From Acidobacteriota bacterium (GTDB lineage: Bacteria; Acidobacteriota; Terriglobia; Terriglobales; Acidobacteriaceae): 64,000 nt of DNA. The notes under the pieces are model-generated. The model made no database searches and had not been told where the DNA came from. It worked only from the letters and a program-made list of their open reading frames with translations. Each line of letters starts with the position of its first letter. The stretch's first letter is position 1. The stretch is from the NCBI GenBank assembly GCA_021813745.1, contig JAKAJO010000025.1:1-64000 (forward strand). Direction: 5' to 3'. Below, piece by piece: positions 24,237 to 43,000 of the stretch. A program made the position numbers and the translations under genes.

Positions 24237-24418
24237 GCAATGAAGAGCCTGATTCTCGGTCCAAGTTGCACGGTGTTAGAAGCTGTGAAGATCGTGCGGC
24301 TCGCTTTGGCAACGAAAGTTATTGGAGATGGAGAGCCGATTTTCGAGGCGCTGCAAAACGCCAGGTGAGGGCAACTCACCATTCGGCGAAAAGCTGGCGA
24401 TGCAGTCAGGTGAATGCA

Positions 24419-25822: not shown

Positions 25823-25849
25823 GCAGGAACACGAGTTGAAGGAGTCCTT

Positions 25850-26932: not shown

Positions 26933-26933
26933 G

Positions 26934-28667
26934 ATGGGCGTGATCGTCGTCAACAATCTCAGCAAATCCTTTGGTAAGGGAACAAGCCGCAAGAATGCGC
27001 TGAAGAACGTTTCCTTCGAGATCGCCGAAGGCAACATGGCCGCGCTCATCGGGCCGGACGGAGCGGGCAAGACCACGCTTCTTCGTCTTCTTGCTGGCAT
27101 CCTTCAGCCGGATGCCGGGACGCTTCAAGTACTCGGTCATGCGCTGCCCGACGACTCCCTGCAACTCCAAGCCAGGATCGGCTATATGCCGCAGCGCTTT
27201 GGCCTGTATGAAAACCTTACGGTCGAAGAAAACCTGACGCTCTTCGCCGATCTGCACAACCTCTCGGAAGACGGTCGCAAGGCGCGCTTCGATGAACTGT
27301 TGACCATGACGGCGCTCGGCCCCTTTCGCACGCGCCGGGCCGGACAACTTTCCGGCGGAATGAAGCAGAAGCTGGGACTGGCATGCACCTTGATTCATCC
27401 TCCGAAGTTACTGCTTCTCGATGAGGCCAGCGTCGGAGTGGACCCAATTTCGCGCAGGGAATTGTGGAGCATCATTCAGCACCAAGTGATCCATGAAAAG
27501 GTGACAGTCCTTTTAAGCACGGCCTATATGGACGAAGCCGAGCGATGCGACCATGTTCTTCTTCTGCACGAAGGAGAGATTCTCGCGCAAGGAAGCCCTT
27601 CGGACCTCATTGCGCCTATGCAAGGTCATTCCTTCCTTCTCAAAGACGCTGCGCTGGCGCCACGCGCGCTTCAGTCTCAGATCGCCCGTCTGCAGGACGT
27701 GGTAGATTCGGTGATCCAAGGGGATGGACTGCGCATAGTGATGAAGAGCGCGGAAGCGCCGACTTTGCCGGCACGCCTGGTCGCCCAGGGGCTGTCGAAA
27801 CCTGTCCCGGCTCGACTGGAAGATGCATTTGTCAGTCTGCTTTTTAACCGCAATCCGCATCATTCCACTCCTCTGCCCAAGACAACTGAGACAGCCGCCA
27901 ATGACATTCCGGTGGTTGAGGTGAAGAGCCTTTACCGCTATTTTGGCTCCTTTGCCGCAGTGAAGGACGTCAGCTTCTCAGTGCACAAAGGAGAGATTTT
28001 CGGACTGCTTGGAGCGAACGGCGCCGGAAAGTCCACAACCTTCCGTATGTTGTGCGGATTGATGCCGGCTTCTTCAGGGACCTTGCGAGTCGCCGGCGCC
28101 GACCTGCGCACCGGGGCAGCATCGGCCCGAGCACGCATCGGTTATGTCTCGCAGAAGTTCTCTCTCTACGGCGCTCTGAGTGTCCTGCAGAATCTTTCTT
28201 TCTTTGCCACTGTCTATGGTCTTCAGAGCCGGCGCAAGCAAGACCGCATTGCATGGGCTCTCGAAGAACTTGAACTCAAGAACTACATTGCCACAAATGC
28301 CGCCGATCTGCCCCTGGGATACAAGCAGCGCCTAGCCCTGGCCTGCGCCTTGATGCACGAGCCGAGCATCCTTTTTCTCGATGAGCCAACTTCGGGGGTC
28401 GATCCGCTGGCGCGGCGGGAGTTCTGGGCACGTGTGAACGCGCTTGCGCAAGGCGGAACCACATGCCTGGTGACGACCCACTTTATGGAAGAAGCAGAGT
28501 ACTGCGACCGCCTGGTCTTGATGTCATTGGGAGAGGTTCTGGCGGAGGGCACTCCCACGGAAATTAAGAGCAGGGTACGGCGTGCGGATCAGCCCAACCC
28601 AAGCATGGAAGACGCCTTCATCTCCCTCATTGAAGAACACGAGCGCGTCAGCCGGAGGGCATCATGA
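26934..28667 (+). CDS. ABC transporter ATPase with two nucleotide-binding domains (YbhF-like)
   Basis: The 577-residue protein carries two ABC ATPase domains in one chain. Domain 1 has Walker A LIGPDGAGKTTLLRLLAG, signature LSGGMKQKLGLACTL and Walker B LLLLDEASVGVDP. Domain 2 (from about residue 325) has LLGANGAGKSTTFRMLCG, a degenerate signature LPLGYKQRLALACAL and ILFLDEPTSGVDP. This is the YbhF type that works with two ABC-2 permeases in multidrug-type export. ATG 26934 has gaggaaa upstream. It overlaps the following permease gene by 4 nt. Confidence 0.9.
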   Translation: MGVIVVNNLSKSFGKGTSRKNALKNVSFEIAEGNMAALIGPDGAGKTTLLRLLAGILQPDAGTLQVLGHALPDDSLQLQARIGYMPQRFGLYENLTVEENLTLFADLHNLSEDGRKARFDELLTMTALGPFRTRRAGQLSGGMKQKLGLACTLIHPPKLLLLDEASVGVDPISRRELWSIIQHQVIHEKVTVLLSTAYMDEAERCDHVLLLHEGEILAQGSPSDLIAPMQGHSFLLKDAALAPRALQSQIARLQDVVDSVIQGDGLRIVMKSAEAPTLPARLVAQGLSKPVPARLEDAFVSLLFNRNPHHSTPLPKTTETAANDIPVVEVKSLYRYFGSFAAVKDVSFSVHKGEIFGLLGANGAGKSTTFRMLCGLMPASSGTLRVAGADLRTGAASARARIGYVSQKFSLYGALSVLQNLSFFATVYGLQSRRKQDRIAWALEELELKNYIATNAADLPLGYKQRLALACALMHEPSILFLDEPTSGVDPLARREFWARVNALAQGGTTCLVTTHFMEEAEYCDRLVLMSLGEVLAEGTPTEIKSRVRRADQPNPSMEDAFISLIEEHERVSRRAS

Positions 28668-29779
28668 ACCGGATGCGCGTTAAAGGCCTTATGCGCAAGG
28701 AGGTCTATGAGATCGTTCGCGATCCTTCCAGCATCGCTATTGCCTTTGTCCTGCCCCTGGTTCTCCTGTTGATCTTTGGATATGGTGTTTCACTCGATGC
28801 GCGAAGCGTTCCTGTTGCCGAGGTGGTCGAACAGCCGACATATCTGACAGCCTCCTTTCTCAGTGAACTCGATCATTCACCCTGGTTTCATCCGGCGCGC
28901 TACCCCGATCAGGCATCCGCCGAGCAGGCCATGATGCAGGGCCGCGTTCAGGCAATCCTCTGGCTGCGTAGTGACTTCTCACGGCGATCTCTGAGCTCCG
29001 GGGAGACTCCGATACACCTCACCATCAATGGCGTCGATGCCAATCAGGCGCGCATCATTCAGAACTACGTGAATGGAACTTGGCAAACCTGGCTGCAACA
29101 GCAGGCGACACTTCAGGGGCAGCCGCTCGCCGTTCCCGTCGTCGCGGATGTGCGTATATGGTTCAATCCAGCACTCACCAGCCGCGACTATCTGATTCCG
29201 GGACTCATTGCCATCATCATGACGCTCATTGGAGCTCTCTTGACTGCGCTGGTTGTGGCGCGTGAATGGGAGCGAGGCACCATGGAAGGCATCATGGTCA
29301 CTCCAGTAGCAAAAACCGAAATCCTGCTGGGCAAACTGGTCCCCTATTTCGTGATGGGAATGGGCGGAATGATGTTGTCGACTGCGATGGCGGTCTTCCT
29401 GTTTCATGTTCCGCTGCGTGGTTCTCTGACGGTTCTCATTGGATCCGCTGCGCTCTTTTTGCTTACCGCCCTGGGGATGGGACTGGCGATCTCCGTGCTG
29501 GCGCGAAGCCAGTTTGTGGCTGCGATGGTTGCGATCGTCACTACGTTCCTTCCAGCCTTCATACTCTCTGGATTTCTCTTCGATATCCGCTCCATGCCGC
29601 AGGCGATTCAGGTTCTCACGCACATTGTCGCTGCGCGTTACTTTGTGGCTACGCTGCAAAGCTCGTTTCTTGCCGGGGATCTCTGGTCTGTGATTGTGCC
29701 CAACCTACTGGGGCTTGCAGTCCTCTGCATTGTCTTTCTTGGCTTATCTGTGCTTCGGTTTCGCAAGAGGTTGGATTGA
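28664..29779 (+). CDS. ABC-2 type permease, first (YbhS-like)
   Basis: The 371-residue protein has one N-terminal membrane span (SIAIAFVLPLVLLLIFGYGV), a large extracytoplasmic loop (about 45-170), and five spans towards the C-terminus (LIPGLIAIIMTLIGALLTAL onward). The motif VVAREWERGTMEGIMVTPVA is characteristic of ABC-2 transporters. It overlaps the ATPase gene by 4 nt and the second permease by 1 nt (TGATG), implying a heterodimeric transporter assembled from coupled translation. Confidence 0.88.
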   Translation: MNRMRVKGLMRKEVYEIVRDPSSIAIAFVLPLVLLLIFGYGVSLDARSVPVAEVVEQPTYLTASFLSELDHSPWFHPARYPDQASAEQAMMQGRVQAILWLRSDFSRRSLSSGETPIHLTINGVDANQARIIQNYVNGTWQTWLQQQATLQGQPLAVPVVADVRIWFNPALTSRDYLIPGLIAIIMTLIGALLTALVVAREWERGTMEGIMVTPVAKTEILLGKLVPYFVMGMGGMMLSTAMAVFLFHVPLRGSLTVLIGSAALFLLTALGMGLAISVLARSQFVAAMVAIVTTFLPAFILSGFLFDIRSMPQAIQVLTHIVAARYFVATLQSSFLAGDLWSVIVPNLLGLAVLCIVFLGLSVLRFRKRLD

Positions 29780-30897
29780 TGCGAACGAGAATTCTGCGCG
29801 TCTTTGCACTTGTTGTGAAGGAACTTCTGGCCTTGCTGCGCGACCCCGCCAGTCGCGCCGTTCTGATCGGTCCGCCGATCATTCAGCTCATCGTGTTTGG
29901 CTATGCGGCCACCTTCGAACTGAAGCACGTTCCGTTTGTCGTGTACAACCAGGACCAGGGACAGCTATCAAGAGAGCTTGTCGCGCGCTTCGCCGGCGCG
30001 CCAAGTTTCGATCTTGTGCAATTCGTCTATGACCAGAGCGCGGTAAAGAAGGCAATCAATAACAAGTCGGCATTGATGGCTATGGATATCGGGCCGAACT
30101 TTACTTCAGACCTGGAGCGTGGGCAACCGGCACACGTCCAGATTGTTCTGGATGGGAGAGACTCCAACACCGCTGCCATTGCCATGGGATACGTCCAATC
30201 CATCGTGACCCATTTCAATGAGTCACAAGTTCTGCAGCACGGAACGAAGCCTCCGCCCACGGTGCTTCTGGATCGAGCCTTGTTCAATCCAAATCTTGAT
30301 TCGCGGTGGTTCATCGTCCCTGGCATCTGTGGAATTCTCACGCTTTTGGTGAGTATGCTCACCACGGGCCTCTCTGTTGCACGCGAACGCGAAATGGGAA
30401 CCTTCGATCAGCTCCTCGTCACTCCGATGCCTCCGACAGAGATTCTGCTAGGAAAGGCCTTGCCGGGCTTTCTGGTTGGCACAGCAGAAGGAACACTGAT
30501 TGTTTTGATGGCGATCTTCTGGTTCCATGTTCCCTTCACAGGAAGCCTAATTGGCCTTTACATTGGCCTGCTCTGCTTTCTCTTCGCGGCGGTTGGCATT
30601 GGATTGATGATTTCGTCCCTAGCCGTCACGCAACAGCAAGGGCTGCTGGGTGTCTTTCTCTTCATGGTGCCGGCAATCGTCCTCTCCGGGTTCGCAACCC
30701 CAATCGCGAATATGCCTCAGGCCGTGCAGTACATTACGCTGCTCGATCCATTGCGCTACTTTCTAATCGTCCTGCGGGGCAGCTTCCTGGAGGGTGGTGG
30801 CATCGCCTTGTTTTGGCCGCAATATTGGCCACTACTCATGATTGGGCTGATCTGCATGGTCGCGGCCGGCAATCTCTTCCGAAAACGCCTCGCTTAA
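29779..30897 (+). CDS. ABC-2 type permease, second (YbhR-like)
   Basis: The 372-residue partner of the preceding permease has the same layout: N-terminal span (RAVLIGPPIIQLIVFGYAAT), extracytoplasmic loop with FVVYNQDQGQLSRELVARF, and C-terminal spans after VPGICGILTLLVSMLTTGLS, with SVAREREMGTFDQLLVTPM. It ends the TolC-HlyD-ATPase-permease-permease operon. Downstream, a 6-bp inverted repeat (GTGCGC/GCGCAC, 30918-30937) lacks a T-run, so termination is unclear. Confidence 0.88.
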   Translation: MRTRILRVFALVVKELLALLRDPASRAVLIGPPIIQLIVFGYAATFELKHVPFVVYNQDQGQLSRELVARFAGAPSFDLVQFVYDQSAVKKAINNKSALMAMDIGPNFTSDLERGQPAHVQIVLDGRDSNTAAIAMGYVQSIVTHFNESQVLQHGTKPPPTVLLDRALFNPNLDSRWFIVPGICGILTLLVSMLTTGLSVAREREMGTFDQLLVTPMPPTEILLGKALPGFLVGTAEGTLIVLMAIFWFHVPFTGSLIGLYIGLLCFLFAAVGIGLMISSLAVTQQQGLLGVFLFMVPAIVLSGFATPIANMPQAVQYITLLDPLRYFLIVLRGSFLEGGGIALFWPQYWPLLMIGLICMVAAGNLFRKRLA

Positions 30898-31013
30898 TCG
30901 CCGCGATGCGCCTCTCAGTGCGCGTCACTTAGCGCACGTGGCACTGACTGCCTGGAGGCTCTCTTGCGAATCTACTCAGGCTGAATCTGCAATAGCGGCT
31001 CTGTGAAGTATCA

Positions 31014-31175
31014 TCACTGGAACTGAAAGGCCACATAGACGAATGTCATCACTTCAGGGACCTCGTCCAGCAAGCCGATAGCTACTGCGCAAGCTGCTTC
31101 TAAATTGGTTCCATAGAGCGCAGCTGCCACGGTCATCGTTACCTCACAACTGTTCGATGCGGCGGTGAATGACAT
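31014..31175 (-). pseudogene. C-terminal remnant of an ACR3-type arsenite permease
   Basis: The minus strand translates in one frame to FTAASNSCEVTMTVAAALYG followed by TNLEAACAVAIGLLDEVPEV and a stop at 31014. This matches the last transmembrane part of ACR3 arsenite efflux permeases (FTAASN..., ALYG/N..A...A..IG.L.EVPV). The rest of the ~350-residue protein is missing, so this is a fragment. Its presence beside an IS3 remnant and an ArsR gene points to a broken ars cluster. Confidence 0.6.
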
Positions 31176-31229
31176 TGATGAGCCCCGTCCTCTTAAAGCT
31201 TTGCTACACGTGAGTCTTCGGCCAGAACC

Positions 31230-31640
31230 GAGCCTGCAAAGGCGGAAGATTGGCTGATGAAGAAGGAGCGCTGTTCCGTTGCACAGATTGTGGTGTTCTG
31301 AAGGGGGCAGAAGTGGGAGTGCTTGTCACGGACGTGATCGCAAAGTCGGGGATCAGCGAACAAACGTTCTACCGCTGGAAGAAGCAGTATGTCGGCCCGG
31401 AATCGGACCAGGTCTGGGAGATGAAACAGCTGCAGGACGAGAACGGCCGCCTGAAGCAGTTCGGGCCGACTTAGCCTGGATAAGACGATACTCCAGGATT
31501 TGCTCCATAAAAGTGGTAAAGCCGCCTCGGCGCCAGGCACTGGTCCAGTACCTATGTGACCAGTACCACGTCAGCGAATAGCATGCCTGTAGAGCACTAC
31601 GAACTGATTGCGTTCCGCATCGCCACAATGGACAAAGACT
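31230..31640 (+). mobile_element. Degraded IS3-family transposase (orfA plus start of orfB)
   Basis: From ATG 31256 the frame MKKERCSVAQIV shifts near 31290 into GAEVGVLVTDVIAKSGISEQ and TFYRWKKQYVG, the helix-turn-helix of IS3-family OrfA. After a stop at 31474 the sequence continues with a LSLDK-like stretch and LVQYLCDQYHVSE, the start of OrfB, then more stops. At least one frameshift and several stops mean it is dead. No intact ends or target duplication are visible. Confidence 0.65.
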
Positions 31641-31651
31641 ATAACGACTGA

Positions 31652-31682
31652 TAGTATATTCGAAGTATCTAATATTCGAACT
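31652..31682. promoter_or_regulatory. Candidate ArsR operator/promoter: repeated TATTCGAA
   Basis: atattcgaa occurs at 31656-31664 and again at 31672-31680, 16 bp apart, just 10 bp before the arsR start. TTCGAA is itself palindromic, and the surroundings are very AT-rich as in a promoter. Autoregulation of the arsR-hyf operon through this site is an inference. Confidence 0.45.
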
Positions 31683-31690
31683 TATGGTAG

Positions 31691-32050
31691 ATGGTCATGC
31701 CCGATGCACTGCGTCGCTTTAAAGCAGAAGTCTTTCAAGCATTAGCACATCCGACGCGAATTGCGATTATCGATCTGCTTGGGGAGAAGGAGCTATCGGC
31801 TGGAGAACTGATGGAAAAGCTCGGCATCGAGCAAGCAAACATTTCTCAACACCTCGCCGTGCTCCGATCCAGACAGTTGCTGGTAAATCGAAAGGTTGGC
31901 AACCAAGTTTTCTACTCGGTCCGCGACCGGCTCTTGCTTGAGGTGCTTGCGCTTATGCGCACCTATTTCCAAAATCATCTCACTGGTTCACTGGCATTAG
32001 CTCGCGAGATGAGCAGCGAGAATAAACGGATGAAAGCGACGCGATCGTAG
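31691..32050 (+). CDS. ArsR-family regulator heading the hyf-like operon
   Basis: The 119-residue winged-helix protein has ALRRFKAEVFQALAHPTRIA, a recognition helix in LGIEQANISQHLAVLRSRQL and the wing VNRKVGNQVFYSVRDRLLLE. No cysteine pair typical of metal sensors is present, so the signal is unknown. The gene ends 38 bp before hyfB on the same strand, and the repeated TATTCGAA sites lie just upstream. It therefore probably regulates its own operon of complex-I-like genes. It may alternatively be a left-over of the broken arsenic cluster to its left. Confidence 0.85.
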   Translation: MVMPDALRRFKAEVFQALAHPTRIAIIDLLGEKELSAGELMEKLGIEQANISQHLAVLRSRQLLVNRKVGNQVFYSVRDRLLLEVLALMRTYFQNHLTGSLALAREMSSENKRMKATRS

Positions 32051-32088
32051 AGGATCAAATTCGCTGAGAGAGCCTGACGAGAGGAATC

Positions 32089-34134
32089 TTGAGCCTTTAT
32101 TTCTCGAGTTCGAATGTTGCCGCATGGATGCCAGGGCACAGCGTGACCACAATATTGGCGATTGTCCTGTCATGGACAATCCTCTCTGCAGGTTGCATGC
32201 TGCGGCCGCACAGTGTGCGGTATGTAGCACGCTTTCTCTTTCCGGTGGGTGCGTTAGGATCCATTGCGATGTTTATTGGAGCAGCATGGTATGTCTTCCA
32301 TGCTTCCGCGCCTGAAACCATAACCCTTCCGCTCGGTCTCCCTGATCTTCCGTTTCACATTCGTCTGGATGCTCTGTCTGCATTCTTTCTGATGATCCTT
32401 GGACTTTCGAGTGCCGGTATTTCTCTGTTTGCAGCCGGATATTTTCGTAGTGGGGAAGGAACTGCTCCAGGGGTTCTTGGACTTTACTACCATGTCTTTC
32501 TTGCAAGCATGGCGATTGTCATTCTTGCCGACGATGCTTACTTATTCATGGTGGCCTGGGAGACGATGGCGCTTTCTTCGTACTTCCTCGTCACCTCGCA
32601 GCACCGAATTCCTGAGATTCGCAGCGCTGGATTTCTGTATCTGCTAATGGCCCACCTAGGGGCCGTCTGCATTCTACTCAGCTTTGGCGTGATGCAGGGT
32701 GGAAGCTGGCAATTCACCCTCGACGCAATGCGTGGCGCATCGTTGAGCCCTTTCTGGGCAAGCGTTGCGTTTACGCTGGCGCTGATTGGATTCGGCGCCA
32801 AGGCAGGATTAGTACCTATGCACGTCTGGCTGCCAGAGGCGCATCCCGCCGCACCTTCGCCCGTCTCCGCGATGATGAGCGGCCTGATGCTGAAGACAGC
32901 TATCTACGGGCTGCTACGAGTCACCTTCGATCTTCTTCATGTCCACTTCTGGCAATGGGGAGTGGCTGTGCTTGCATTGGGACTCTTCTCCGGATTGTTT
33001 GGGGCGATCTTTGCCGCAGTGCAGACGGACATGAAGCGACTGCTCGCATATTCATCTATCGAGAACATCGGCCTAATCTTTACGGGCATTGGACTTTCGA
33101 TTCTATTCGCTGCAAGCCACTTGCTCCTCTTTGCAGCATTAGCATTGAGTGCGGCTTTGATCCACGCTCTAAATCACTCTCTATTCAAGAGTATGCTGTT
33201 TCTGGCGACCGGTTCCGTTTTACACGCCACGCGCCAACGGAGCCTCGGTAAGCTAGGCGGGCTGATTCGGTACATGCCGTGGGTTGCGACGCTGGCCTTG
33301 ATTGGTACGCTCGCCATCGCCGGCTTACCTCCGCTGAATGGCTTCATTTCTGAGTGGCTACTTTTGCAGTCATTCCTTTTTACACCTCGGCTTCCGCACG
33401 CCTTCATCAATATGCTGATTCCGCTGGGTGCGGCGGCATTGGCGTTGACGGTGGCACTTGCGGCCTATGTCATGGTGAAGTTTTACGGAGTCATTTTCCT
33501 GGGGCAGCCCCGCGAGCCGTCTCTCCAACAAGCGCACGACGCAAATTGGCTCGAACGACTCGGTCTCAGTTGGCTGGCCGCAGGATGCATTGTAATCGGG
33601 GTACAGCCGCAACTGGCGCTTCACGCTGCGGGGAAAGCGACGAGATTGCTTGTGGGCCAGGCGGTGGTTCCCGATCCGTCGCTCTGGCGTATAGCTCCGA
33701 TTGCGCCTGCACAGGCTTCGTATAGCGGATCGATCTTTCTCGGAGTGATCGTTTGCGTTGTTGCCATCACTTTTCTGGGGGTTCGTCTCCTAGCTCATGG
33801 CCGGATGCGCAGGACCGCTGCATGGGACTGCGGCTATCGCTGGCAAACATCGCGTATGCAGGATACTGCGGAGGGATTTGGTCAGCCGATTCGGCATATG
33901 TTTGGCGCCTTCTTCCAAATGGAACGCCAACTTCCCTCCGCGGACGACATGAATCCACGCTATCAAATGCACATTGAAGACCGCTTCTGGCGGGCCATGT
34001 ACCGGCCCATCGCGGCAGCTGTGCCCCGACTAGCCGATGCGATTAGTGTCCTGCAGGGAGGACGCCTTGCGATCTATCTGCTCTATAGCTTCCTGACGTT
34101 ACTTGGCCTCCTGGTATTTGTTCTATGGCTTTGA
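32089..34134 (+). CDS. hyfB: HyfB-like proton-pumping membrane subunit (NuoL/N family)
   Basis: The 681-residue, about 16-span membrane protein belongs to the Mrp-antiporter/NuoL-like family. The conserved core reads LIGFGAKAGLVPMHVWLPEA with HPAAPSPVSAMMSGLMLKTA after it, then LLAYSSIENIGLIFTGIGL and ALNHSLFKSMLFLATGSV, containing the Lys and Glu residues of the proton channel. The C-terminus (WDCGYRWQTSRMQDTAEGFG) is typical of HyfB/HycC. It starts at TTG 32089 with GAGAGG upstream and overlaps hyfC by 10 nt. In the complex it would translocate protons or sodium. Confidence 0.92.
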   Translation: MSLYFSSSNVAAWMPGHSVTTILAIVLSWTILSAGCMLRPHSVRYVARFLFPVGALGSIAMFIGAAWYVFHASAPETITLPLGLPDLPFHIRLDALSAFFLMILGLSSAGISLFAAGYFRSGEGTAPGVLGLYYHVFLASMAIVILADDAYLFMVAWETMALSSYFLVTSQHRIPEIRSAGFLYLLMAHLGAVCILLSFGVMQGGSWQFTLDAMRGASLSPFWASVAFTLALIGFGAKAGLVPMHVWLPEAHPAAPSPVSAMMSGLMLKTAIYGLLRVTFDLLHVHFWQWGVAVLALGLFSGLFGAIFAAVQTDMKRLLAYSSIENIGLIFTGIGLSILFAASHLLLFAALALSAALIHALNHSLFKSMLFLATGSVLHATRQRSLGKLGGLIRYMPWVATLALIGTLAIAGLPPLNGFISEWLLLQSFLFTPRLPHAFINMLIPLGAAALALTVALAAYVMVKFYGVIFLGQPREPSLQQAHDANWLERLGLSWLAAGCIVIGVQPQLALHAAGKATRLLVGQAVVPDPSLWRIAPIAPAQASYSGSIFLGVIVCVVAITFLGVRLLAHGRMRRTAAWDCGYRWQTSRMQDTAEGFGQPIRHMFGAFFQMERQLPSADDMNPRYQMHIEDRFWRAMYRPIAAAVPRLADAISVLQGGRLAIYLLYSFLTLLGLLVFVLWL

Positions 34135-35093
34135 AATTCGTCCCATTTATGTGGCAGTTTGGAGAGGTAATCCTCGCCGTTGCATTGGCGCCCCTGTTCG
34201 CAGGCTGGATCGGTCAGTGTCGTGCCTGGATGCAAAACAGATCGGCGCCACCGCTGACTCAGCAATACCGCATGCTGCGGAAGCTCTTTAAAAAAGACGT
34301 TGCTTTGGCGGAGAATGCATCGCGGCTCTACCGCACCGCGCCGTATGTCCTGTTCGCTACGATGGTGTTGGTCGCAGCAATTACCCCTTCTGTCGTTACC
34401 GATTTGCCCTTTGCGCACGCGGCGGACGCCATCGCGCTCATTGGACTGTTCGCCACAGCGAGGGTATTCCAGGCACTCGCGGCTATGGACATTGGAACAT
34501 CGTTTGGGACGCTTGGAGCCAGACGAGAGATGATGGTTGGTTTCCTTGCGGAACCGGCGATTCTCATGGTGTTCTTCAATGCATTTCTTCTTTTTGACAG
34601 CACCGCACTAACCAGTCTCGTCGACAACTACTCGACGCATCCGTCCGTCATTGATCCGAGCGTAATCTTCGCTGCGATCGCATTTGTCATGGTCTTGCTC
34701 GCGGAGAATGCGAGAATCCCGATCGACAATCCAGCGACGCATCTCGAATTGACGATGATTCACGAAGCGATGGTGCTCGAGTATTCTGCGCGTCACCTTG
34801 CGCTGGTCGAATGGGCATCGTCCCTCAAGCTATTCAACTACGTCTGCATCGGCATCGCGCTATTTCTGCCTTGGGGTATTGCCATTCACGGAGCCAATCT
34901 TATCGCGATTCTGATTGCACTTGCTGCACTCTCTGTGAAACTTGCTTTCTGTGGGGCAGTACTTGCACTCATCGAATCACTTTCGGCGAAACTTCGGATC
35001 TTTCGCGCACCGGAGTTTCTGGCCATGGCCTTTCTGATTGCCGTGCTGGGACTGCTTGTTCATCTATTACTGGGAGCGAATACAAATGCTTAG
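34125..35093 (+). CDS. hyfC: HyfC-like membrane subunit (NuoH family)
   Basis: The 322-residue protein has about eight spans. It shows NuoH-type features: MLRKLFKKDVALAENASRLY in the first cytoplasmic loop, MDIGTSFGTLGARREMMVGF, and the conserved acidic loop LLAENARIPIDNPATHLELT with MIHEAMVLEYSARHLALVEW. These residues form the link between the hydrophilic arm and the membrane arm in complex I and group 4 hydrogenases. It overlaps both neighbours (hyfB by 10 nt, hyfE by 8 nt). Confidence 0.92.
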   Translation: MALKFVPFMWQFGEVILAVALAPLFAGWIGQCRAWMQNRSAPPLTQQYRMLRKLFKKDVALAENASRLYRTAPYVLFATMVLVAAITPSVVTDLPFAHAADAIALIGLFATARVFQALAAMDIGTSFGTLGARREMMVGFLAEPAILMVFFNAFLLFDSTALTSLVDNYSTHPSVIDPSVIFAAIAFVMVLLAENARIPIDNPATHLELTMIHEAMVLEYSARHLALVEWASSLKLFNYVCIGIALFLPWGIAIHGANLIAILIALAALSVKLAFCGAVLALIESLSAKLRIFRAPEFLAMAFLIAVLGLLVHLLLGANTNA

Positions 35094-35751
35094 ATCGCAC
35101 CTGGATCTCGAATTTGCAAAGCTGCTTGCCGCTGCCATGCTGCTTCTTTCTTTCGTCATGCTGTCGACACGACGTACACAACAATTGATTACGCTGTTCG
35201 CTTGGCAGGGGACCATTCTCTTCTTGTCCACCGTACTCGTAGCGCATGACGCAGGCGTGACGGAGTTGTATTTCTCCGCGGCGCTCACCCTGATCCTGAA
35301 AGTGATTACTCTGCCATTGGTACTTCATTTTCTGATTCGGAGGCTTGGGGCACAGTGGGACAACGAGCCGTTGGTTAATATTCCCGTCACAATGCTCGTC
35401 GGCCTGGTACTTGTGATCTTTGCATTTGGTCTTGCTCAGCCCATCAGCATACTGGCCACAACGATCATGCGCCATACCATCGGCATCGCGCTGTCTGTCA
35501 TTCTGCTTTCGTTCCTTATGATGATTACGCGGCGCAAGGCTGTGACACAGGTGATCGGGTTCCTCGCGATGGAAAACGGGCTTTTCCTTGCCGCTACTAG
35601 CGCAACGTACGGCATGCCGATGGTGATTGAGCTGGGCATCGCGCTCGATCTTCTCGTAGCTGTCTTCATACTTGGGATATTTTTCTTCCAGATCCGTGAG
35701 CAGTTCGACAGTCTTGATCTTCATCACCTTGAGTCACTGCGGGAGGAGTAA
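35086..35751 (+). CDS. hyfE: HyfE-like membrane subunit (NuoK-related)
   Basis: The 221-residue protein has six or seven spans. The segment LFLSTVLVAHDAGVTELYFS followed by AALTLILKVITLPLVLHFLI has the NuoK-like acidic and lysine residues, and VIGFLAMENGLFLAATSATY carries the conserved MENG motif. HyfE fuses a NuoK-like part to extra helices. The gene starts within the end of hyfC and stops 1 bp before the hyfF start codon, with a GGAGGAG ribosome site for hyfF inside its last codons. Confidence 0.88.
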   Translation: MLRSHLDLEFAKLLAAAMLLLSFVMLSTRRTQQLITLFAWQGTILFLSTVLVAHDAGVTELYFSAALTLILKVITLPLVLHFLIRRLGAQWDNEPLVNIPVTMLVGLVLVIFAFGLAQPISILATTIMRHTIGIALSVILLSFLMMITRRKAVTQVIGFLAMENGLFLAATSATYGMPMVIELGIALDLLVAVFILGIFFFQIREQFDSLDLHHLESLREE

Positions 35752-35752
35752 C

Positions 35753-37204
35753 GTGGAACTGTTGCTGGTTCTGGGGCTGCCACTGATCGGGACGTTAATT
35801 CTCGCAATTGCAGGCGCGCGCCGTTATGCGGCAGAGGTGAACATCGGCATCAGTTTTATGACGCTGATCTTTGCATCCTTCCTTGTCTTGCGCATCATCA
35901 GGAGCGGACCGTTGCTGGTCTGGCATGAACAATTCTTTGTGGACTCGTTCAACGTTTTTCTGGTAGCACTCACCGCGTTTGTTGGCATGACTACGGCTGT
36001 CTTTTCTCGGCCTTACATGCATATCGAAGAAGATCATGGAAAGCTAAGCGCGAAGCGCCTTCGCCTGTATCACAGCATGTATCAGCTTTTCATGTTCGCG
36101 ATGCTGCTGGCGCTGCTCACCAACAATATGGGGCTCGTATGGGTTGCTATGGAGGCAGCAACGCTCTCGACCGTTTTGCTGGTATCGCTCTACAGAACGA
36201 AAGCAAGCCTGGAAGCCGCATGGAAATACTTCATCCTGTGTGGCGTGGGAATCGCTCAGGCCCTGTTTGGAACGATCCTCCTCTATTTTGCCGCCGAGCA
36301 TACTTTGGGACGTCAAGGAATGACGGCACTTCTCTGGACGCACCTGAACGCTGTGAAGACAGAGTTGGAGCCCACCGTGTTGGGTCTCGCATTCGTCTTC
36401 CTTCTTGTCGGGTACGGTACCAAGGTTGGACTGGCTCCTTTGCATAATTGGCTTCCTGATGCTCATGCCGAAGGGCCAACGCCCGTCTCCGCAGTACTCT
36501 CGGGTCTTCTCTTGAACGTCGCGCTCTATGCTGTCGTCCGCTGCAAGGTTCTGGCCGTCGGATCGATCGGCTCGTTGATTCCATCCAGGATGATGATGGC
36601 GTTCGGATTGTTATCCGCCCTGCTTGGAGCGTTCTTCTTATGGCGACAACACGACATTAAGCGCCTTTTTGGATACTCGTCGATCGAGCACATGGGCATT
36701 ATTACGTTTGCGTTTGGACTGGGCGGACCTATTGCCAACTTCGCAGCACTTCTGCACATGACCGTCCACTCGCTCACCAAGTCGTCTATCTTTTTTACCG
36801 CAGGTCACGCGTCGCAAACAGCCGGAACTCAGCAGGTGGACGGAATTCGAGGACTTGCGGAGATCAACCCAACGGTCGGATGGGGACTGATGCTGGGCTC
36901 ACTGGCAATTCTTGGGATGCCTCCATTCGGGGTATTCGCAAGCGAATTCCTGATACTCACGACCGCAATGCGTGAGCATCCATGGGCCACGCCATTCTTG
37001 CTCATTGCGCTCGGCGTAGCGTTCGCCGGCATATTCATCAAGGTGCAACCGATGGTCTTTGGCGAGAGCGACGCACCCAAACTTCCGCATTCACCTGCTC
37101 TCGTTCCCGTGTTTGTGCATCTCGCTTTGGTTCTCACTCTGGGCTTGTATATCCCCCCGGCGCTGGCTGAGTGGTACCGCGCCGCGGCAAGGTTAATTGG
37201 ATAA
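35753..37204 (+). CDS. hyfF: HyfF-like proton-pumping membrane subunit (NuoN/M family)
   Basis: The 483-residue protein has about 14 spans and starts at GTG 35753 with GGAGGAG upstream. Family signatures include NNMGLVWVAMEAATLSTVLL (channel Glu), GYGTKVGLAPLHNWLPDAHA, EGPTPVSAVLSGLLLNVALY, and LFGYSSIEHMGIITFAFGLG. The conserved Glu and Lys residues of the antiporter-like channel are present, so proton translocation is plausible. It is the second antiporter-like subunit of this cluster beside hyfB. The stop falls 4 nt before the hyfG ATG. Confidence 0.92.
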   Translation: MELLLVLGLPLIGTLILAIAGARRYAAEVNIGISFMTLIFASFLVLRIIRSGPLLVWHEQFFVDSFNVFLVALTAFVGMTTAVFSRPYMHIEEDHGKLSAKRLRLYHSMYQLFMFAMLLALLTNNMGLVWVAMEAATLSTVLLVSLYRTKASLEAAWKYFILCGVGIAQALFGTILLYFAAEHTLGRQGMTALLWTHLNAVKTELEPTVLGLAFVFLLVGYGTKVGLAPLHNWLPDAHAEGPTPVSAVLSGLLLNVALYAVVRCKVLAVGSIGSLIPSRMMMAFGLLSALLGAFFLWRQHDIKRLFGYSSIEHMGIITFAFGLGGPIANFAALLHMTVHSLTKSSIFFTAGHASQTAGTQQVDGIRGLAEINPTVGWGLMLGSLAILGMPPFGVFASEFLILTTAMREHPWATPFLLIALGVAFAGIFIKVQPMVFGESDAPKLPHSPALVPVFVHLALVLTLGLYIPPALAEWYRAAARLIG

Positions 37205-37208
37205 CTCG

Positions 37209-38756
37209 ATGACGCCAGATTCAATCAAAGAAGCGGAAGGCGGACTGTACTCGAACCTGCGGTGCCGAAAGTTCGAGGCCGGCGCAGTGGCTTGGCGTAA
37301 CTTTGCGGAGACAACGCGCTCGGACGGTGGCAGACTGCTGGCCCTGTGGGGCACTGATGATTGTGACAGGGATGGGAGGCTCCGCATCGTTGCGTGCTAT
37401 CTCAATGCCGAATCTCTAGCCGTAGTCGAGCACGCAATGGACAGTTGCTCAAAGCCGCTCTACCCGAGCCTCGTCGAATTTTTCCCGAGTGCATTGAGGA
37501 TGGAGCGTGCTGTTGCCGATCTTCTTGGAATCCAGAGTATGCAGCCGGACCACCGTGGCTGGCTGCGGCACAACGGTTGGCCAGAGGGTGTCTTTCCGCT
37601 GCGTCGCAGCTTCAACGCGAGCACTCAATATCAGCTTGACTCGGAGCCTTACTCATTCATACAGGTAGAAGGTGACGGCGTTCACGAGATTCCAGTGGGG
37701 CCTGTACACGCGGGCACCATTGAACCAGGCCACTTCCGCTTCTCTGTGGTAGGCGAAAAGGTCCTTCGCCTCGAGGAACGGCTTGGCTATGCGCACAAGG
37801 GCATCGAGAAGCGCTTCGAAGAGCTCCGCCAAAAAGAGGGGCACAAGTTGGCGGCGCGCATTTCTGGCGATTCGGCCGTTGCCTATTCATGGGCTTACTG
37901 TGCGGCACTGGAATCCATTACGCAAACAACCTGTCCGCCACGAGCGGCACAGTTGCGGGCCCTGGCTCTGGAGCATGAGCGCATCGCTAATCATCTGGGC
38001 GATCTTGGGGCACTGGGCAATGATGCTGGTTTCGCTTTCGGACTCACACAGTTCTCGCGCTTGAAAGAAGATCTCCTCCGCATTCATCAACCCATCTTCG
38101 GCACCCGTTATCTGATGGATTTCATTCAACCCGGCGGGGTAGCGGTCAATTTGCCGCAGGATGCGCCACAATTACTTCTGGACCACTACGCCGCTCTCGA
38201 GATCAGTGTCTCAGAACTGCGCGGCATCTATGAGAATCATGCCGGTGTTCAGGACCGATTCAGAGGCGCCGGAGTGCTCTCGAATGAGATTGCGGTGCGA
38301 TTGGGTGCCATGGGACTTGCTGGGCGTGCCTCGGGCATTGCCCATGATCTCCGCGTCGATTGTCCATGGCATCCCTACAACGACGTGACTTTGAAGATAG
38401 CTACACAGACCACAGGTGACGTCGCCGCTCGCGTGAATGTACGCTTCGACGAAATCGTACAGTCGATAATGATCTGCCGTGAACTTTTAACCAACATTGC
38501 AGATGGCGCAATTGTGTCTGACGTTCCTGACGCCGCTCCTGGCATCCTGGGCGTGGGCGTTATTGAGGGGTGGAGAGGCCCGGTCCTCATAGCATTAGAG
38601 ACTGGGCCGTCAGGAATGATTCGACGCTGCCATGCCCACGACCCATCCTGGCAGAACTGGCCTCTGATTGAGTACGCGATTCTAGGGAATATCGTGCCCG
38701 ACTTTCCATTAATCAACAAGTCATTCAATTTGTCCTACAGCGGACAGGACGGGTGA
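37209..38756 (+). CDS. hyfG: HyfG-like large subunit without nickel-binding cysteines (NuoC-NuoD fusion)
   Basis: The 515-residue protein joins a NuoC-like N-terminal domain (about 1-150) to a NuoD/[NiFe]-hydrogenase large-subunit-like domain (about 160-515: PVGPVHAGTIEPGHFRFSV, LRLEERLGYAHKGIEKRFE, LEHERIANHLGDLGALGNDA). The two CxxC motifs that hold the Ni-Fe centre are gone. L1 reads R-I-S219-G-D-S222 in place of RxCGxC, and L2 reads DP-S480-W-Q-N483 in place of DPCxxC. It cannot carry a standard Ni-Fe site, which fits Ehr complexes rather than hydrogenase-4. ATG 37209 is used; TTG 37197 is an alternative overlapping hyfF. Confidence 0.88.
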   Translation: MTPDSIKEAEGGLYSNLRCRKFEAGAVAWRNFAETTRSDGGRLLALWGTDDCDRDGRLRIVACYLNAESLAVVEHAMDSCSKPLYPSLVEFFPSALRMERAVADLLGIQSMQPDHRGWLRHNGWPEGVFPLRRSFNASTQYQLDSEPYSFIQVEGDGVHEIPVGPVHAGTIEPGHFRFSVVGEKVLRLEERLGYAHKGIEKRFEELRQKEGHKLAARISGDSAVAYSWAYCAALESITQTTCPPRAAQLRALALEHERIANHLGDLGALGNDAGFAFGLTQFSRLKEDLLRIHQPIFGTRYLMDFIQPGGVAVNLPQDAPQLLLDHYAALEISVSELRGIYENHAGVQDRFRGAGVLSNEIAVRLGAMGLAGRASGIAHDLRVDCPWHPYNDVTLKIATQTTGDVAARVNVRFDEIVQSIMICRELLTNIADGAIVSDVPDAAPGILGVGVIEGWRGPVLIALETGPSGMIRRCHAHDPSWQNWPLIEYAILGNIVPDFPLINKSFNLSYSGQDG

Positions 38757-38763
38757 GGCGGAG

Positions 38764-39276
38764 ATGATCAAGACCCTTGGGCGCATGATTCGCACAGGAA
38801 TCCTGACCGAGAAGATTGAGAGAGTAGCAAGGCCGGATTCTGAAGCGGACGAGATCCACGCAAAGCTTCGCGGGATCCTGGGCCGTGCCCTCTGTATTCG
38901 CCAGGTCGATGCCGGCTCCTGCAATGGATGCGAACTCGAGATTCAGGCCCTCAACAACCCGTACTACAATCTCGAGGGCCTTGGAATCAAGTTCGTGGCC
39001 AGCCCCCGTCACGCAGACATGTTGCTCGTCACCGGCCCCGTATCGGTCAATATGGAAGAAGCGCTCAAGCGCACTTTCGATGCCATGCCCGATCCAAAGT
39101 TTGTTGTCGCTGTCGGAGATTGCGGTGCATGTGGGGGGATCTTTGGCGAGAGCTATGCCAGCAGAGGCGCAGTCGCTCATGTCATCCCAGTCGACTCCAC
39201 GGTTCCAGGCTGCCCGCCAACTCCCACCGCCATTCTTCAAGCCATTCTCCAAGCCGTTTCGCCCGGCCAAGTATAG
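38764..39276 (+). CDS. hyfI: HyfI-like small subunit with intact [4Fe-4S] ligands (NuoB family)
   Basis: The 170-residue NuoB-type protein keeps the four ligands of the N2-like cluster: Cys53 and Cys56 in DAGSCNGCELEIQAL, Cys120 or Cys123 in VGDCGACGGIFGES, and Cys150 in STVPGCPPTP. It should pass electrons next to the large subunit even though that subunit lacks its nickel ligands. It is the last gene of the arsR-hyfBCEFGI run and lies 7 bp after hyfG. No ferredoxin-like subunit (HyfA/HyfH) and no hydrogenase maturation gene occurs in the window. Confidence 0.92.
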   Translation: MIKTLGRMIRTGILTEKIERVARPDSEADEIHAKLRGILGRALCIRQVDAGSCNGCELEIQALNNPYYNLEGLGIKFVASPRHADMLLVTGPVSVNMEEALKRTFDAMPDPKFVVAVGDCGACGGIFGESYASRGAVAHVIPVDSTVPGCPPTPTAILQAILQAVSPGQV

Positions 39277-39294
39277 GGAGAACTCGCGTGGGCA

Positions 39295-39621
39295 ACGGTT
39301 GAAGTCACTTCTTCAAGAAACTGTTTCATAAATCCTTCTCCATCCATTGCGCCGAGCAATGTACGTCAGGCGTCAAGCCAAACATCTTGTTGTTCCTACT
39401 GCTTCAAACGCCGCCAGCAGGTCGCCGGAGATGGATGATTGTCCTGAAGAAATTGCCACGCCGCCCCGGTCCACAACGCCCAAAGGATGCCTTCCAAACA
39501 GGCCCAGTTCGACACCCCAAGACGGCCCCGCTTATCGCGGCGACGTTTGGGCTCAGGCAACAGCGGCTCAATCAGAGATCACCGTGCATCGGTCAACAGT
39601 TCGAATCGACGCTTGGTCACC
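39295..39621 (-). pseudogene. IS5-family transposase remnant
   Basis: From GTG 39621 the minus strand reads VTKRRFELLTDAR-stop-SLIEPLLPEPKRRRDKRG, then VSNWACLEGILWALWTGAAW and SPATCWRRLKQ-stop-EQQDVWLDA-stop. This is the N-terminal half of an IS5-family transposase with three in-frame stops; the DDE catalytic half is missing. The fragment lies between the hyf operon and the tRNA remnant and shows that this boundary has been a landing place for mobile DNA. Confidence 0.7.
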
Positions 39622-39836
39622 CAACCAGTGAGCCAAACTCAGACCGCATCAAAAGTACCCACCTTGAAGCCGAAGCGATTTATTAAGCAGCCTTCAGGAT
39701 GAAGGTTGCAGATTTGGGCGGAGTTAAGGATCAATCGCATTCTTAATTTCAGCGGTTGGGTGCCTGTTGCACCCCATATCAAACTCACGACCTCTGCTTT
39801 TTCAGGGAGTCATCGGCCATAAACCCTTTAGATTTA

Positions 39837-39881
39837 TGGCGGGGACGACGGGGCTCGAACCCGCGACCTCTGCCGTGACAG
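39837..39881 (-). other. 3' fragment of tRNA-Asp(GTC), probable attachment site
   Basis: On the minus strand the 45 nt from CTGTCAC to GTCCCCGCCA reproduce the anticodon loop (anticodon GTC), variable region, T-arm (GGTTCGAGC), 3' acceptor strand and encoded CCA of tRNA-Asp. The 5' half is absent: upstream sequence neither pairs with the acceptor nor with the anticodon stem. Such 3' pieces are what tyrosine integrases leave at one end of an element inserted in a tRNA gene. By polarity the element lies to the right. An imperfect echo (acgacctctgc) appears ~80 bp to the left. Confidence 0.7.
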
Positions 39882-40013
39882 TCTACCCGTACTAGGTTTT
39901 TCAACGACTTACGAACCCGTGGGGAACGCCTAAGACCACCGAAGTCGTCGAAGACCGCGCATTTTGTGGATCGGATTGTGGATCAAAATCGTGTCTTTAC
40001 ATTCATCAAGCGG

Positions 40014-43000
40014 TTACCCCAGTTTTGAATCGCCATGCTTGCCGTCGAGAGCCGCGAGGAGATTCAGTAGGGAGCCCCGAAGGTCTTCGGATAGATCCTT
40101 TTGCAGAACTTCTTCGACTCGTTTTGACCAAGTCTTGCGGGCATCTTTGATCGACTTCGACTGGGGTTTCCATTCCTTCGCCAGAGTGGTGAGCCATTCC
40201 ACCTCTGGTTCCCCGGGATTCTCGATGATCTGCTTTACTCTTTCGTACGACTTCTCAGGGCCATCTTCCAGAACTAGTTGAGCAACAAGACAACCATAGT
40301 AAGGAAGCGCACCACCGATCCTTCCGTTGATTGATTTGAACGCACCCAGCAGTCGCAACCGGAAGGTACTCAAGTCGGATTCGCTCAAAAGGTCAATTAC
40401 TTCGCTCCAGTCCTTGCGAGGCTTCGCCCCGTCTGGTTGACCCAGCCTGCCTTCCACATGCGCGAATAGGGCATCCTGAAACGCCAACTCGAGCTTCAAG
40501 CCATTTGCCTTAAGTAGTAGCGCCAAGTCAAGAAGCTCTGTTTCAGCGTTCAAGGCTTCCAGCCATCGATCTTTGTTCACGCCCAATAGTGAAGTAGTCA
40601 GGAACTGGCGGTAGGCTTCATTACCGTCCTCGCGCATCGCAAGAACATAGAGATGCATGAGCTTGAGATCAAATTGGTGGATTGACAAACATGTCGCGAG
40701 CTCTCCAGAGGAAGCCTTTACTTGGAGAATTCGCACCAAGTCCTTTTCCTCTGCTGCCCCCTGCCAAAAATCGAAGTGCGTGACAAGTTCGTCGGTATCG
40801 ACTTCGTGAGCACTCGCCTGTTTGAATCGTGCGGCGATCATCCGCAGTATGAGCTGAGCGCGGTCTACATGTCGTGCCGAGGTTTCACGCCATTCCGCGA
40901 AGGTGAGCCAGGACAGACAGTGTGCCGCGATCACATCCAGTGCAGGGTATGAAGCTGGGCTTTGAAACCACCCATTGAACAACTGCCTCCCGTTCCACGA
41001 CCGCCATTGAGGAGTATTCTGTGGCCACCCCTGATTTGGAGTCTGTGCTATTTGGAATCCGTTCCCGAGCAATGGGAGAGAGCAGAGTGCAACTGACTCA
41101 GGATTTCCAGCTTGATTGAACAAAGAAGTCAATTGGATCAGCGCTTCGCTCTGTCCCGTGTTCTCAAGCACGCTTCGAGCCTGGCTAAACTTGGGTACAA
41201 ATCCGTCCAAAGTCTTCAGCACCTCTGACACATCGTTCGGAACCGGCTGCGGATGATCGGTAATCCGGGATTGCAAGGCCGCAATCAGAGGCGCACAATC
41301 TAAGTCTTTTAGTATCGCTGTGAGTCGCCACGCGATATGGCGTTCGCGTTCCGCCCAGTTTCCGCTTTTTGCAGTTTGCGCTAAGGAGTCAACGAGGTCT
41401 TTCCCGGGGATGGCGGGCTGTAAATAGGGCCAAAGGTCGTCTGGTAAGGCAAGGTCCCGCATTCTGTTCAAGATTGCGAAATAACTCGGAGCATCGCAAT
41501 TCACTCTGAATTCGCGGCGAAGGGCCATATTTTCACGCACTGCAAATGCGGGAAGTAAGATCGCAACCCCTGCGCACCAGTCGGGAGAATTGCCCTCAGG
41601 ACCTCCAGGCGTATTGACCTTGAGGGAATCGCAAACGCTTCTAATGAGCGGGATAGTCGCGGAGCCATTGGCTGCCACCGTAACCAATTCTTTAATCCCA
41701 GTCGCTATGGAATCATTGAAAGGGACCCAGTCCCTAACTAGGTGTGATGCACGCAGGAGGTGTCTCTGGCACCGATCTTTGCCTTCCCAGTCTTCAGTCA
41801 AGCTGGCGAACGCCTTCGCAGAGTTAGCTATTTTCTCTGAGTCAATTTGAACAGTCAGTCCAGGCTGTTCGAGGATCGTTTCCAGCACTTCATAGAAGCC
41901 CGAATTCTTTGCCAATGTTGCCAGGTCATCTCCGTTCCCAGCATGCAGCGTGCTGGTGATCGGTTGGAACAGGAGCGTTTGATAGGCATCCGCCGGCTCG
42001 ACATTGAAGTGGAGAGCGGCCAAGTTTCTCTGCCATCCTTCTCCCAGCAGCACATTCAAAGTCTGAGCATCGCTGGGAAAGACCGCAGGCTCGGCAGACA
42101 ATAAAGTTCCAAGGACACCGTTGCTCTTCTTTTCCGCCAGTAAGACAAAGGCGGCTTGGTGGGGCAAGGGGATTCGTTCCTGCCACTGGGCGTGCAATGC
42201 CCCCAAACCGTTGACGAAGATTTTCAGATTTCGAGGAGTTGGCGGTGCGAACCCGGAAACTGCGAGACGGTCATAAAGGCGGAAAATCGCGTGAAATTCC
42301 ACTTCCGTGTGCCTTGGGTCTGGAAATGCTTTCCTCAGTTGTGCGATGAGGTATTTCTCCCAATTCGTCAGGATGACGGGAGGAACACGAAACGTAGCTT
42401 GAAATGTTTTCTCAAGAAAATGGCGCGATGCGGCAGTACGATCGTTCGTGGCATTGCCTTCACCCGCTTCCCAAAGATCGGTGATCGCTTCAGGATCGAA
42501 CGGAATGAGGACCCATACTCGACTGCGCCAATCGCTCTTACCTTTGGTGGGAGGATCGAAGAATACCCGAAGAGTTGCCCAGATCGATCGAGCGTCTTCG
42601 TGGCGGACTCGATCAAGGTTGTCGATTACGAGAAGAACTCGCCGTTCATTGTTCCTCAAAACTTCAGCGAGGAGGTCCTGATAAATCTTCTCGAACTCGA
42701 CCGATGTCGGGTCCGGTGTTTTACTGGTTTTCGATAACGTCGTGTTCTCCGTTGTTGTGAAGATTAGGTTCGGAAGTGGCTCCTTGTCTTTCTCGGACTT
42801 CCCACGTTCTTTGAAGCTCCACCAAGCCCAAAGCATCAATGCCACAATCAATGGCAGGGTACTCAATGCCAATGCTATGGATTCCCATACCGGGTGCCAT
42901 TCGTGATGAACCTTTTGGTAAACCTGGAGCGCGACAGGGGCGATAAGAAGGGAAAGCGCGCCAGCAATTCCCCATGGGCCTAAACGAGGGCTGCTTTCTG

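Follow-up and report, generated by a model that had tools for sequence, protein, structure and literature searches.

An ArsR-Led Ehr-Type Operon

The window analyzed here, 64,000 nucleotides of contig JAKAJO010000025.1 from an Acidobacteriaceae genome (phylum Acidobacteriota, assembly GCA_021813745.1), carries an operon, arsR-hyfB-C-E-F-G-I, whose hydrogenase-like large subunit HyfG has lost all four nickel-binding cysteines. As read from its sequence, the encoded complex is of the Ehr type: the large subunit is without both CxxC pairs, its partners are antiporter-like and NuoH-like, and it falls outside the hydrogenase clade. We put at about one in two the probability that the complex acts as a proton-pumping oxidoreductase under a dedicated ArsR repressor, which likely responds to low oxygen or to a redox signal. 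The genome is 4.6 Mb in size, assembled in 136 contigs and 92.3% complete. Among named proteins, the closest come from Acidobacteriota and Terracidiphilus; among named loci, from Granulicella and an Acidobacteriaceae bacterium.

The seven frames, at 31691-39276 on the plus strand, are open and separated by short overlaps or gaps, bearing out the original prediction of a complete and tightly packed set. Genes were assigned with NCBIfam and Pfam profiles. ArsR (31691-32050) is a 119-amino-acid protein of the ArsR/SmtB type without cysteine (NF033788, 86 bits for a cut-off of 55; ArsR/HTH_5 domain). The membrane part comprises the antiporter-like NuoL/M-type subunit HyfB (32089-34134, TTG start; NF005086, 844 bits, cut-off 667), the NuoH-like HyfC (34125-35093; PF00146 (NADHdh), 100.8 bits), the small subunit HyfE (35086-35751, ATG at 35086; NF008556, 101 bits, under the cut-off of 136) and a second antiporter-like subunit, HyfF (35753-37204, GTG at 35753; NF005045, 846 bits, cut-off 543). 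HyfG (37197-38756) combines NuoC-like and NuoD/HycE-like parts (PF00329, 30 kDa, and PF00346, 49 kDa); read from the DNA, its start is TTG 37197 or ATG 37209. The last gene encodes the NuoB-like HyfI (38764-39276; PF01058 (Oxidored_q6), 107.6 bits), with one [4Fe-4S] site. The NADH module NuoEFG and the ferredoxin-type HyfA/HyfH are not among the operon genes; two other NuoD-type genes lie elsewhere in the genome, and no ferredoxin motif was found in the six frames of ~28500-42500.

Former Nickel Site of HyfG

The CGIC motif of Escherichia coli HycE/HyfG aligns with S223-G-D-S226 of the window HyfG, and DPCYSC with N511-L-S513-Y-S-G516 (residues are counted from the TTG; ATG numbering is four lower, 507-512 for the second motif). 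The loss of all nickel ligands had been predicted, which holds for the four cysteines and for the S-G-D-S motif; the second motif had been mislocated. DPS480WQN483, proposed as the counterpart of DPCxxC, aligns with AATYAN of E. coli HycE/HyfG, 29 residues upstream of the real site NLSYSG. The aligned columns hold no cysteine ligands. With the four cysteines lost, the complex likely cannot make hydrogen. Furthermore, only three residues follow NLSYSG, which leaves a maturation protease nothing to cleave; the E. coli HyfG and HycE continue for 32 residues past DPCYSCTDR.

The motifs show no sign of a frameshift or sequencing error. Such an error is unlikely because none of the 120 proteins among the matches listed (the window's own included) has either cysteine pair at the correct columns; two of them have one cysteine. 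In the phylum sample, 40 Hyf-type large subunits were fetched, including those of the window and of a second cluster on contig C29; a 41st row was a NuoD. Neither pair is present in 35 of the 40, all four cysteines are present in four (L060, L061, L088, L089), and the remaining one, L053, retains the first pair and is truncated at its end. In a separate alignment of 41 chosen nickel-less HyfG proteins, E176, G178, D225, R386, K508, S509, N511 and Y514 are invariant, and these residues lie within or close to the motifs that once supplied the ligands. Going by the alignment, the former nickel site is conserved and not decayed. The best Foldseek match of the HyfG model is HycE (7z0s_E), with a template modelling (TM) score of 0.85 by query length.

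Two of the large subunits with four nickel cysteines (L060 and L061) end in ELCYSCTDR or ELCYACTDR, without a cleavable tail. Judging by these ends, they may be hydrogenases that mature without a protease. In the HyfG tree they diverge at the base of the nickel-less set, where the branching order is not resolved.

Iron-Sulfur and Proton-Path Residues

The small subunit HyfI has its cluster cysteines C53, C56, C120 and C150 in the motif columns, with SCNGC, GDC and PGC present. In HyfB, E158, K238, K269 and E422 occupy the columns of NuoM E144, K234, K265 and E407. HyfF (numbered from the codon that precedes the GTG) matches the NuoM columns with E135, K225 and E399 and has an asparagine at the K265 column, the same as E. 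coli HyfF. In HyfC, the NuoH E-channel columns E157, D213, E220 and E228 are kept. The original prediction had the proton-channel residues and the NuoB-type [4Fe-4S] cysteines retained; this is right for HyfI, HyfB and mostly HyfF, and wrong for two HyfC positions, E216 and E218.

At its N-terminus (MIKTLGRMIRTGILTE), HyfI is similar to E. coli HyfH (MLKLLKTIMRAGTATV), minus the ferredoxin domain that follows in HyfH. We infer from this likeness that it may be the remnant of a HyfH-like subunit.

Family Placement and Distribution

The HyfG tree (61 rows, quick search) includes 19 of 80 genome-contig loci, which were kept from at least 578 matches, and five plasmid loci; five loci that are partial or odd (L052, L053, L063, L068, L080) were omitted. 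The window HyfG pairs with L051 (support 97) and then with L092 of Granulicella and L094 of Rhodanobacter (four rows, 99). This group nests in a 14-row set (99), the other 11 rows of which are given as Gamma- and Betaproteobacteria. The four outgroup hydrogenases are separate (99), and the window protein falls outside hydrogenase 4, among the nickel-less complexes of Proteobacteria. The operon was likely acquired from Proteobacteria. Together, the ligand loss, the partner subunits and the tree position support the earlier view of an Ehr-type complex and not a hydrogenase.

Of the 80 listed genome-contig loci, 58 have the gene order B-C-E-F-G-I, several of the others being cut; the order also occurs on plasmids of Variovorax, Rhizobium, Methylocalor, Burkholderia, Azospirillum and Cupriavidus. 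Relatives include Paraburkholderia, Granulicella, Rhizobium, Gallionella, Sideroxyarcus, Thiobacillus and Nitrospirota. The missing ferredoxin subunit had been regarded as unusual; it is usual in this clade. In or within 1.5 kb of hyf in the 80 listed loci, a single frame with a ferredoxin motif was found, an out-of-frame overlap of hyfG in L150. Maturation genes are, as had been noted, absent locally; a HypD is present elsewhere in the genome (contig C125), a point the original prediction did not have. The genome also has a full-length match to the NiFe large subunit (C107) and a partial one (C15).

Contig C29 (L018:5377-15252) of the same genome carries a second nickel-less Hyf cluster, which belongs to another clade and has the order C-E-F-G-I-B-B. 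In its HyfI, PGN replaces PGC at the last cluster cysteine.

Regulator and Predicted Operator

Control by an ArsR-type protein had been listed as unusual. It is the rule in the Acidobacteriota clade, and the regulator is of the Rv0081 lineage. A survey of 300 genomes of the family gave 56 that matched at 1e-60, with 32 places of the window type (at least 63% identity). Thirty of these, besides the window and L051, were fetched, seven being cut by contig ends before arsR. The other 23 have upstream DNA, and in every one of them the first recognized gene before hyfB is arsR, at most 483 bases away. Wherever the contigs reach, the family relatives at 63-72% identity keep the gene order, the motifs and the regulator.

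The best match of the window ArsR among solved structures in the PDB is Rv0081 of Mycobacterium tuberculosis (6JMI, 65 bits), followed by SmtB (47 bits). Rv0081 is also the best solved-structure match of the Hyf-linked ArsRs of L062 (74 vs. 49 bits) and L056 (63 vs. 48). The five other Hyf-linked ArsRs compared score 82-174 bits against the window ArsR, and own-genome paralogues at most 45. Hyf-linked ArsRs were picked by similarity to the window ArsR (1e-10 in the family set, 1e-3 in the wider set). In a tree of 58 rows and 115 columns, 33 Hyf-linked ArsRs and Rv0081 form one clade (97/92), in a bootstrap that had not settled and with Rv0081 on a long branch. The clade excludes the contrast set of SmtB, NolR and 22 own-genome ArsR-type rows, the latter being frames of at most 200 amino acids that match the window ArsR at 1e-3, with a few duplicates from overlapping loci. 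The cut L092 was dropped from the tree. In the wider phylum, L056, L058 and L062 have an ArsR like that of the window and the order I-B-C-E-F-G; in L058 the regulator sits after hyfG. No ArsR (1e-8) precedes hyfB in the 57 listed genome-contig relatives with enough DNA. The Acidobacteriota locus L092 does have an ArsR and is not counted in the 57 because its contig is cut near its start. The Rhizobium regulator before hyfB was rejected as a Hyf-linked ArsR, having no match to the window ArsR, and a weak ArsR-like frame on the opposite strand before hyf in L135 (28 bits) was left uncounted.

ArsR proper has a CxC metal site. The window ArsR has no cysteine, and hence it is not a thiol sensor and has no CxC site; a thiol-sensing ArsR was rejected on this ground, and a low-oxygen or redox-linked signal is likely. 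The arsR product is predicted to be a dedicated repressor of the hyf operon. In M. tuberculosis, Rv0081 is described as a hypoxia-linked dimer without a defined metal site that binds its own promoter at an inverted repeat (PMC6177252), and rv0082-rv0087 as regulated by rv0081 (PMC6901956). A literature search of limited reach found no account of ArsR-led Ehr operons in Acidobacteriota.

An imperfect palindrome of 20 bp, ATATTCGA-AGTA-TCTAATAT, lies before arsR at 31656-31675 and is predicted to be the ArsR operator. It is the only ATAT-N12-ATAT of the 64 kb and matches the template ATATTCGA-N4-TCGAATAT at 15 of 16 positions; a perfect ATAT-N4-ATAT was not found in the window. Its start lies 62 bases ahead of the arsR FKA codon, a spacing found in most of the scored relatives. 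Within the window's ArsR clade, 17 loci were scored (an 18th was too short); their best matches reach 12-16 of 16, against background means of 8.1-8.7, and the share of random stretches that match as well is at most 0.02. Relative to the FKA codon, the palindrome starts at -62 to -64 in 13 of the 17 loci and at -65 in two more, among them L051. This fixed position is better evidence than the scores. The other ArsR group, with 12 loci scored, has a weaker palindrome (9-12 of 16). Furthermore, the operon heads of L056, L062 and L058 carry ATAT-N4-ATAT-N4-ATAT, and ATAT-N4-ATAT occurs nowhere else in their 18-19 kb.

A second ArsR-type domain is present in the window at ~24000-24134 (L209), just before an efflux gene set (24233-30897) that encodes outer-membrane efflux, HlyD and ABC transporter proteins.

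Proposed Function and Alternatives

In the proton-pumping oxidoreductase that we propose, the former hydrogen-making site would likely have become a polar pocket for another substrate. A soluble low-potential donor may reduce the single [4Fe-4S] cluster of HyfI, from which the electron would move on to a small acceptor (quinone being the likeliest) at the HyfG/HyfI/HyfC interface. The reaction would drive proton transfer through HyfC, HyfE, HyfB and HyfF. An ArsR dimer on the palindrome before its own gene would keep the operon low until a low-oxygen or redox-linked signal lifts repression; the relative Rv0081 belongs to a hypoxia network.

Several observations weigh against this proposal. The operon has no donor or acceptor gene. 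In the single-chain AlphaFold model, HyfG segments 165-200 and 513-519 are below 50 in the predicted local distance difference test (pLDDT), so that the model does not show the pocket. In the 49 kDa subunit of Thermus, complex I binds quinone through His38 and Tyr87; these ligands are not kept in HyfG, where the columns hold I175 and G224. On the proton path, HyfC holds alanine and histidine at the NuoH E-channel acids E216 and E218, and HyfE has no acid at the columns of NuoK E36 and E72, as is also the case for E. coli HyfE in this remote alignment. As for the regulator, 27 places were found at 33-43% identity, 10 of which were fetched (two of them cut); arsR is present in five of the eight loci of this clade with upstream DNA and absent in three. 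An unlike ArsR could have been missed because the Hyf-linked ArsRs were found through their similarity to that of the window, and some of their open frames contain one to three cysteines. The palindrome scores are partly circular since the template was derived from the loci on which it was scored, and sigma-70-like sites in the region are not commoner than in shuffles.

The neighborhood of the relatives suggests a different role. In eight of the 57 listed relatives, a SulP gene is found directly before hyfB on the same strand (L096, L120, L145, L151, L163, L166, L167, L170; carriers include Methylobacter, Methylothermaceae, Thiobacillus and Rhodocyclaceae), and PF00916 was confirmed in all seven SulP genes tested, six of them among the eight. 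For this reason an inorganic-carbon role was kept open, in which the antiporter subunits would, together with SulP, couple proton transfer to the hydration of CO2 or the uptake of bicarbonate, in or beside the former nickel site. Many of the named hyf relatives belong to genera that we take to be lithoautotrophic, which counts in its favor, as does the hyfBCEFG cluster of Acidithiobacillus caldus beside a beta-carbonic anhydrase gene; another A. caldus cluster occurs with carbon-fixation genes (PMC3826726). SulP is, on the contrary, not directly before hyfB in the other 49 relatives, nor in the window operon, and SulP substrates are varied. The [4Fe-4S] site, moreover, is retained, although a redox-free hydration enzyme would not need it. 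Neither Acidobacteriaceae nor M. tuberculosis is known to need an inorganic-carbon system, and we consider this role unlikely. The complex could also run in reverse, the proton motive force pushing quinol electrons uphill to a ferredoxin-like acceptor. The same anatomy permits either direction, and Gallionella, Sideroxyarcus, Thiobacillus and Nitrospirota presumably need reverse electron flow, but we know of no such flow in Paraburkholderia, Granulicella and Rhizobium, which are carriers as well, and the operon has no ferredoxin gene; this reading, too, seems improbable. A redox-silent cation/proton antiporter or valve would explain the Mrp-like HyfB and HyfF with their kept lysine and glutamate residues, the single Fe-S cluster and the absence of an electron-input subunit, yet HyfI retains its four cluster cysteines and HyfG a strongly conserved site, and this reading is quite doubtful.

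Two further explanations have little to recommend them. The HypD and NiFe large-subunit matches in the genome would fit a hydrogenase that uses other nickel ligands, which the Ser/Ser and Ser/Gly at all four ligand columns and the missing tail for a protease make very improbable. Decay of the operon would account for the motif loss alone; the seven open frames and the conservation of the locus in family relatives at 63-72% identity contradict it, and it is scarcely credible. A bolder and speculative idea, to which we give little weight, is that nickel-less Ehr is an energized inorganic-carbon machine. Its emptied pocket would handle CO2 or bicarbonate, with SulP as the supplier in autotrophs and methanotrophs, and it would also serve, under an Rv0081-type ArsR, as a low-oxygen survival module in Acidobacteriota and mycobacteria.

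The original statement that Ehr complexes have no established substrate is upheld. To our knowledge, more than ten years of sequence-based descriptions have not yielded a reaction for them. New here are the correction of the second motif, the strict pairing with arsR in the clade, a regulator lineage that spans phyla and the predicted operator. The regulator lineage, the conserved palindrome and the arsR-hyf pairing provide a handle on which signal lifts ArsR and when the complex is needed, a question that becomes approachable in harmless soil bacteria instead of a pathogen. The SulP and carbonic anhydrase neighbors supply a second, quite different hypothesis. If proton pumping without hydrogen or NADH is true, the complex would be an energy-conserving enzyme so far missing from bacterial physiology.

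Neighboring Genes

A regular partner gene beside hyf was rejected, as the largest neighbor cluster covers only 13 of the 80 listed loci. RuBisCO, carbonic anhydrase and DabA were not recognized as regular neighbors when read by eye, no profile search having been made. Spermidine-synthase-like genes recur around hyf in Burkholderiales (L100, L103, L117, L125, L172, L176), called by annotation in L172 and L176 and by eye in the others. On contig C67 of the same genome (L086:83-10342), two HyfB-like antiporter genes are followed by a 4Fe-4S dicluster protein, an NrfD-like membrane protein and a frame of 1158 amino acids; this is possibly another proton-pumping redox complex.

In the window itself, a KAP-type P-loop NTPase is encoded on the minus strand at 40014-43397, with a weak match to the defence ATPase QatA (43 bits, cut-off 600). 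At 18271-23026, a Y-family polymerase-like gene (IMS domain) lies beside one of the DNA polymerase III alpha type, like an imuB-dnaE2 pair.

Comparison with Known Systems

The system shares subunits B, C, E, F, G and I with E. coli hydrogenase 4 and formate hydrogenlyase 1 (FHL-1), and the HyfG fold with HycE. Hydrogenase 4, on the contrary, has the four cysteines, the C-terminal tail, HyfA, D, H and J and the regulator HyfR, all of which are missing from the window operon. An active hydrogenase was rejected since the nickel ligands and the C-terminal tail are absent, and complex I proper since the quinone ligands and the NADH module are absent.

Ehr complexes also have a group-4-like large subunit without nickel ligands and complex-I-like or antiporter-like partners. 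For Riflemargulisbacteria, an Ehr complex with formate dehydrogenase (FDH-Ehr) has been proposed; the window operon has no formate dehydrogenase gene and has arsR at its head. The motifs of nickel-less Acidithiobacillus proteins, SGD[TS][TS][AV][GA]Y and NLSYSGHDL, were printed in 2018, and the two motifs of the window HyfG are the same, SGD[ST] and NLSYSG(H)D (PMC6002666). The A. caldus cluster is named hyfBCEFG (PMC3826726). Formate dehydrogenase, carbon-fixation or carbonic anhydrase genes lie alongside the Acidithiobacillus clusters, and no ArsR gene is named in the available portions of these two reports (PMC6002666, PMC3826726). In Sulfobacillus, six syntenic genes are reported near a large subunit without nickel motifs (PMC4378227), and the hyf operon of peatland Acidobacteria was published as a formate hydrogenlyase (PMC6018796).

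Among the best 120 of 7981 matches in a protein search from L062, no Hyf protein carried the name of Mycobacterium. The NuoB-like gene, which in the window operon comes last (hyfI), we take to be the first in rv0082-rv0087 of M. tuberculosis. Rv0081 is described as lying in an rv0079-rv0081 operon separate from rv0082-rv0087, whereas the window arsR heads the hyf operon itself. The M. tuberculosis locus, compared by its description, has the gene names hycD, hycP, hycQ and hycE, and its regulator gene precedes and regulates the hyc genes (PMC6901956). That regulator, Rv0081, belongs to the same lineage as the window ArsR (tree support 97/92).

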